Origin: Candidatus Kapaibacterium sp.
GTDB lineage: Bacteria; Bacteroidota; Ignavibacteria; Kapaibacteriales; WFXC01
NCBI GenBank assembly: GCA_027082775.1
Contig: JALWUI010000145.1
Location: 1-38,300, forward strand
DNA: 38,300 nt
Reading direction: 5' to 3'
Both the position numbers and the translations under genes were made by a program. Numbering within the stretch: the first letter of the stretch is position 1; each line of letters starts with the position of its first letter. Of this stretch, positions 562-841 are shown one piece after another. The notes beneath the pieces were generated by a model. That model had not been told where the DNA came from. It saw nothing but the letters and a program-made list of their open reading frames with translations, and ran no database searches.

Positions 562-841
562 AAAAAAGCCGCATCATTCTGTCTGCGCTTGTAATGAAGC
601 GGATAGCTGGTAAGAACCCTTACCGGACACAGTGGGTGCTTGCCTGATTACCTTTTGCTTCCCCCGAACCCTGGGAACATCCGCCTGGATGTTCACGGTG
701 GATGACAGCGGGCCATCCACACGCAGGGTTACTGCTATGATAGCAGTTGGGGCCTGCAATCAGCAACCAGAGCCAAGCTCCCTTTTCGTTGAAACTGTCG
801 GTTCTTACCTTCGCTATAACGATCCGACAGAATGATGCGGC
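562..841 (-). ncRNA. Candidate highly structured ncRNA (6S/SsrS candidate by position), about 280 nt
   Basis: Minus strand 5'-GCCGCATCATTCTGTC (841-826) pairs perfectly with GACAGAATGATGCGGC (583-568), followed by TTTTTT (567-562). Nested inside: ATAGC/GCTAT (813-817 with 603-607), GGTAAGAACC/GGTTCTTACC (800-809 with 609-618), GGGAGCTTG/CAAGCACCC, CTGATTGC/GTAATCAG, AACCCTG/CAGGGTT, and hairpins ACTGCTA-TCA-TAGCAGT, GTGGATG..CATCCAC, GAACATCC-AGGC-GGATGTTC. Lies between zapA and rny with no credible ORF. Confidence 0.65.

Follow-up and report, generated by a model that had tools for sequence, protein, structure and literature searches.

What is the long, nested RNA encoded between zapA and rny in a Kapabacteria genome for which Rfam reports no 6S RNA? 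The locus lies in a stretch of 38,300 nt from Candidatus Kapaibacterium sp. (contig JALWUI010000145.1, hereafter the window), and the original prediction, made from its letters, left two readings side by side: a divergent 6S RNA or a new RNA class. 6S RNA imitates an open promoter and holds RNA polymerase in check. Because homology traced through intermediate sequences, conserved motifs, covariation and synteny with zapA all point the same way, the first reading is retained and the second is dropped, and we assign a probability of about 0.94 to the conclusion that the feature is the 6S RNA (SsrS) gene of this Kapabacteria genome, diverged beyond the Rfam cut-off. What appears to be new here is the 6S RNA of a lineage in which Rfam sees none above that cut-off; our literature search found only one paper naming both 6S RNA and Kapabacteria, and its subject, going by title and abstract, is a different one.

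The locus and its gene context

A single RNA of about 274 nt plus a U-tract is encoded between zapA and rny at positions 841-562 of the minus strand, on which all features described below are located. It is preceded by zapA (891-1187; Pfam PF05164, E 6.8e-14) and followed by the 5′ part of rny (1-522; Pfam PF12072, E 9.2e-41), a gene that runs off the window. The RNA begins with GCCGCATCATTCTGTC (841-826), the exact reverse complement of which occupies positions 583-568 and is followed by T6 (567-562). The minimum free energy of the minus strand is -133.6 kcal/mol, vs. -90.5 +/- 5.3 kcal/mol in 200 dinucleotide shuffles, none of which folded as well (z = -8.16); the plus strand folds less stably (-123.8 kcal/mol). 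The nested structured RNA announced by the original prediction is real, and its coordinates, its arms, the ATAGC/GCTAT pairing and the perfect GGTAAGAACC/GGTTCTTACC helix were given correctly; among the nested pairs listed, only CTGATTGC/GTAATCAG was out of register, the conserved pairing being CTGGTTGC/GGTAATCAG.

The same prediction noted that 6S genes often sit beside zapA, and the zapA-ssrS synteny is indeed the same as in E. coli: zapA and the RNA are 49 nt apart in the window, and zapA and ssrS are separated by 41 nt in E. coli, where fau, not rny, comes next. A link between zapA and 6S RNA has also been described for beta- and gamma-proteobacteria (PMC7641849). Several further families of the phylum share the order zapA-RNA-rny, and the gene after the RNA is rny in nearly all inspected loci.

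Long perfect inverted ends are also what a mobile or dispersed inverted repeat would display, and dispersed copies had been named as the sign of such an element. The RNA is present in one copy in the 2.74-Mb genome and gives one match per matched genome in the order and in the phylum; its fixed place after zapA and its compensatory evolution likewise speak against a repeat. Copy number and synteny refute this explanation, the probability of which is vanishingly small.

Conservation and covariation among relatives

DNA downstream of zapA was collected from relatives of the same order (30 loci first, then 18 more) and, together with one locus recovered through the Rfam model from another genome of the order (G059), made up a set of 49 loci, all of which encode the same RNA (49/49). 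The outer stem and the apex are variable, and the apical arm has two 32-nt blocks with almost no gaps. Among 40 non-redundant sequences, compensatory changes affect many pairs of the helices P1, P2 and P3 (e.g., CG/UA in P1 and GC/UA in P3).

The covariation analysis of relatives' loci called for in the original prediction came out in favor of the fold. The 10 best of 6105 column pairs, ranked by an APC-corrected G statistic, all fall within the proposed helices (0.08 expected), and the top 50 column pairs include 24 proposed base pairs (0.4 expected). In alignment A2, 90.4% of the cells are paired and two-sided changes are found in 19 of 31 pairs; cells with such changes number 191 vs. 73 in shuffles, the covariation score was reached by 0 of 500 shuffles, and all slid registers score much worse, with loss of the covariation signal. 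Under a strict tree-based null, implemented in our own simplified script, one pair only stood at E < 0.05, and the pair ranking was almost perfect.

Homology with 6S RNA through intermediate sequences

At the gathering score, an Rfam scan of the window returns nothing but a tRNA. The RNA scores 12.2 bits against the 6S model RF00013, with an 82-nt apical insertion, and the gathering cut-off of 46.4 bits under which it falls is a detection threshold rather than a biological property. This cut-off is passed in 0 of the 61 genomes of the order, three of which have matches below it (41.2, 39.7, and 31.4 bits); the 41.2-bit match, in G059, extends across model positions 1-187. Running the Rfam models, as had been proposed, left the window itself below the 6S cut-off and without a 6S-Flavo match, and succeeded in an orthologue of the same class (L080, genome G097), which scores 47.1 bits, above 46.4, over the full model (1-187).

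The identity of the RNA is argued through such intermediates because R1, a covariance model built from the 40 sequences (window RNA among them), fails to recognize E. coli ssrS directly, to which it gives 8.3 bits in a register that is not homologous. In the window, R1 gives 128 bits to the RNA, itself one of the 40 sequences of the model, and no other match. All RF00013 matches that were compared coincide with R1 matches (37/37: 3 in the order and 34, sub-threshold, in the phylum sample), and most align end to end, from 1 to 187.

In the orthologues aligned end to end, the register of the 6S motifs is read directly, and the window is linked to them via R1. The bubble and its flanks read AGAACCG...GGG...GCAGGCC...GGAAGC.AAA...CCCACC/UGUG...GGUUC in the orthologues, and their RF00013 counterpart is GAgCCgA...GGG...GcAaGCC...GGAAgC..AA...CCCACCU...GGuUC. 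P2 (AGAACC) falls on the GAgCC helix, and the 15-17 nt that come after it fall on the 5′ side of the central bubble; the apical arm is matched by GGG...GCAGGCC and GGAAGC.AAA, and the 3′ bubble by CCCACC/UGUG...GGUUC.

A new RNA class, resembling 6S RNA in its rod shape only and without descent from it, would account for the scores of the window and of the whole order below the Rfam cut-off, for the failure of R1 to find E. coli ssrS and for the extra branched apex. We nevertheless regard it as extremely unlikely given the superposition of all 37 RF00013 matches on R1 matches and the passing of the cut-off by one orthologue, as well as the shared bubble-flanking motifs and the shared gene neighbor.

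Anatomy of the RNA

The 16-bp P1 closing stem is formed by the 5′ arm (826-841) and its exact complement, the 3′ arm (568-583), and two-sided changes keep its pairs across the order. With the U-tract (562-567), the 3′ arm constitutes an intrinsic terminator, and most relatives have a T-rich stretch after the stem. Next comes an outer internal loop, the 5′ side of which, GGATCGTT (818-825), aligns in orthologues with the internal loop that RF00013 has in its closing stem, and the 3′ side of which carries a small predicted hairpin, CGCTTCATTACAAGCG (586-601), variable in size and sequence among relatives. The original prediction had likened GGATCGTT facing this hairpin to the central bubble of 6S RNA. 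That assignment was mistaken: the two belong to the closing-stem loop, and the true central bubble, an asymmetric one, is formed by GACAGTTTCAACGAAAA (799-783) and ACTGTGTCCGGTAAG (633-619).

The downstream helix P2 pairs a 5′ strand, ATAGCGAAGGTAAGAACC (800-817), with a 3′ strand, GGTTCTTACCAGCTAT (603-618); within it, GGTAAGAACC (809-800) faces GGTTCTTACC (618-609), and on both strands the assignment is based on a GAAC/GTTC pairing nearly invariant in the 40 sequences and on covarying flanking pairs. The 5′ strand of the central bubble has its RF00013 counterpart in the segment GAgCCgAaaauuuuuauaauaGGG, as aligned in orthologues, and the 3′ strand carries the motif CCCAC(T/C)GTGT, of which CCCAC.GTG is found in nearly all 40 sequences and for which RF00013 has CCCACCU. 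The apical arm P3 (5′ strand, 749-782; 3′ strand, GGAAGCAAAA...CACCC, 634-665) provides the almost gap-free 32-nt blocks, and 17 of its pairs display two-sided changes in A2.

Above P3, the RNA is predicted to fold into a branched, lineage-specific apex (667-747) of three hairpins (747-731, 720-698, and 694-675). The last of these shows compensatory changes between the window and a genome of the same genus (GAACATCC...GGATGTTC vs. GAACACCG...CGGTGTTC). The length and the three apical hairpins, which had been noted as exceeding canonical 6S RNA, are both present, and they are explained by a lineage-specific expansion of the apical loop, the size of the apex varying within the order between 14 and 84 nt.

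A rival reading is a cis-regulatory leader or attenuator acting on rny (RNase Y), with the closing stem and U-tract as its regulated terminator. It would suit the location of the terminator, which precedes the ribosome-binding site of rny by about 25 nt and the rny start codon by 40 nt, and the conservation of the rny neighbor in much of the phylum. In 6S RNA terms, the 3′ bubble of the window contains a release hairpin (GGTAAG-GGTT-CTTACC), and as a conserved alternative to P2 this hairpin gave no signal across the 40 sequences of the order (mean z -0.13). An rny leader is highly unlikely on several counts: the conserved core and the bubble agree with those of 6S RNA, the neighbor shared with E. 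coli is zapA whereas fau, not rny, follows ssrS there, and the terminator arises from the outer closing stem, the 40 sequences showing no conserved pairing of the 3′ bubble as an alternative.

Distribution across the order and the phylum

With the RNA taken as 6S RNA, an apparent absence throughout an order is filled, from 0 of 61 genomes by the Rfam cut-off to 56 of 61 by R1, with one match in each. R1 also detects 6S RNA in more than half of the phylum sample (137 of 248 genomes, again one match each). Three genomes of one genus (G010, G048, and G053) and two others (G030 and G057), all at least 90% complete, are without an R1 match, which reflects either a more diverged 6S RNA, loss of the gene or an assembly gap.

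A boxA-like element in the leader

Upstream of the RNA, TGATCTTTTCCAT (881-893) overlaps the stop codon of zapA. This sequence occurs exactly three times in the 2.74-Mb genome, once in the 6S leader and once before each of two 16S rRNA genes (G000:C124:3567-3579 and G000:C49:456-468), from which it lies about 85 nt upstream, a position and sequence type that we take to be those of the rRNA boxA. This correspondence suggests that the 6S gene carries an rRNA-type boxA, and it makes rRNA-type antitermination of 6S RNA likely. Between the element and the RNA, a hairpin, AGAAGCTT...AAGCTTCT (844-880), is kept in both genomes of the same genus and is perhaps a processing site or a zapA terminator.

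Many of the order's genomes have TTCTTTGA, or a sequence close to it, ahead of the RNA, usually at a distance of 23-34 nt. Of 40 upstream regions, 20 contain TCTTTG[AGT], where mononucleotide shuffling predicts 1.2, and 10 of 40 zapA-RNA spacers contain TTCTTTG[AG] (0.15 expected). Two genomes, G059 and G013, have CGTTCTTTGAAAATAGGGAGTA in their 16S leaders and GTTCTTTGAAA in their 6S leaders; three f4 genomes each have the boxA-like pattern at the 6S leader and at one other site, which is not at a 16S gene. The link of the element with rRNA is thus seen in three genomes only, that of the window, G059 and G013. In G013 (e.g., L158-L160), GTTCTTTGAAAA/GTTCTTTGGAAA occurs 32 times in the genome and the reversed pattern 4 times, several of the sites lying inside near-identical repeats about 400-480 nt apart (TACTCCTTCGGAGTTTTGGACACAAAGACCGTTCTTTGAAAACAAATC).

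Outside the order, the element was found in 6 of 42 cases vs. 1.5 expected, weakly above chance overall and with a few convincing examples. Three loci from another class of the phylum (L087, L089, and L100) carry GTTCTTTGAAAACAAAGGC, or a variant close to it, about 35 nt ahead of 6S RNA, which extends the boxA-like leader beyond the order. The 6S-rRNA boxA link itself is lineage-limited, since the pattern is frequent elsewhere in G013 and rare among the other members of the phylum.

No paper joining boxA, antitermination and 6S RNA was found in our literature search, and a boxA-like element common to 6S and rRNA leaders offers a new, directly testable hypothesis on 6S transcription. We give even odds to the fuller proposal that the 6S RNA of Kapabacteria is under the same boxA (NusB/NusE-type) signal as rRNA, which would tie the output of the inhibitor to the rRNA machinery, and has in addition gained a lineage-specific branched apex.

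A model for the action of the RNA

By analogy with characterized 6S RNAs (PMC8876501), including that of Bacteroides (PMC7366714), the rod would mimic an open promoter and bind the RNA polymerase holoenzyme containing the housekeeping sigma factor. Established 6S biology predicts that the bound RNA would inhibit transcription as growth slows. RNA polymerase would then initiate a product RNA close to GAACCGAC, within the 5′ bubble, copying the 5′ strand of P2 into approximately 5′-GUCGGUUCUUACC, with a template that continues into 800-817; this copying would open P2 and release the enzyme on outgrowth. Transcription of the 6S gene itself may be accompanied by antitermination at the preceding rRNA-type boxA.

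Comparison with known 6S-type RNAs

Ms1 RNA of Actinobacteria is likewise a 6S-like rod that binds RNA polymerase, and it differs in binding the core enzyme (PMC9130861); a cmscan of the window with all Rfam families gave no match to Ms1. 6S-Flavo (RF01685; Weinberg et al., 2010, PMC2864571) is a divergent 6S RNA from the wider Bacteroidetes group, and its model found nothing in the window or in the 61 genomes of the order, nor did it match any control genome. In Bacteroides, 6S RNA and its pRNAs are known by experiment (PMC7366714).

6S/SsrS RNA (RF00013) is the known family to which the Kapabacteria RNA is assigned. On the one hand, the latter differs from it in its length (274 nt vs. about 200), its branched apex, its score below the Rfam cut-off, its following gene (rny, not fau) and a boxA-like element that is also present in rRNA leaders. 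On the other hand, both are rods with a closing stem, a central bubble, an apical stem and a terminator at the closing stem, both carry the motifs GAnCCgA / GGG and CCCACC / GGuUC around the bubble and GcAgGCC / GGAAGC.AAA in the apical arm, and both are encoded by one copy located after zapA, a gene order common to E. coli and Kapabacteria.
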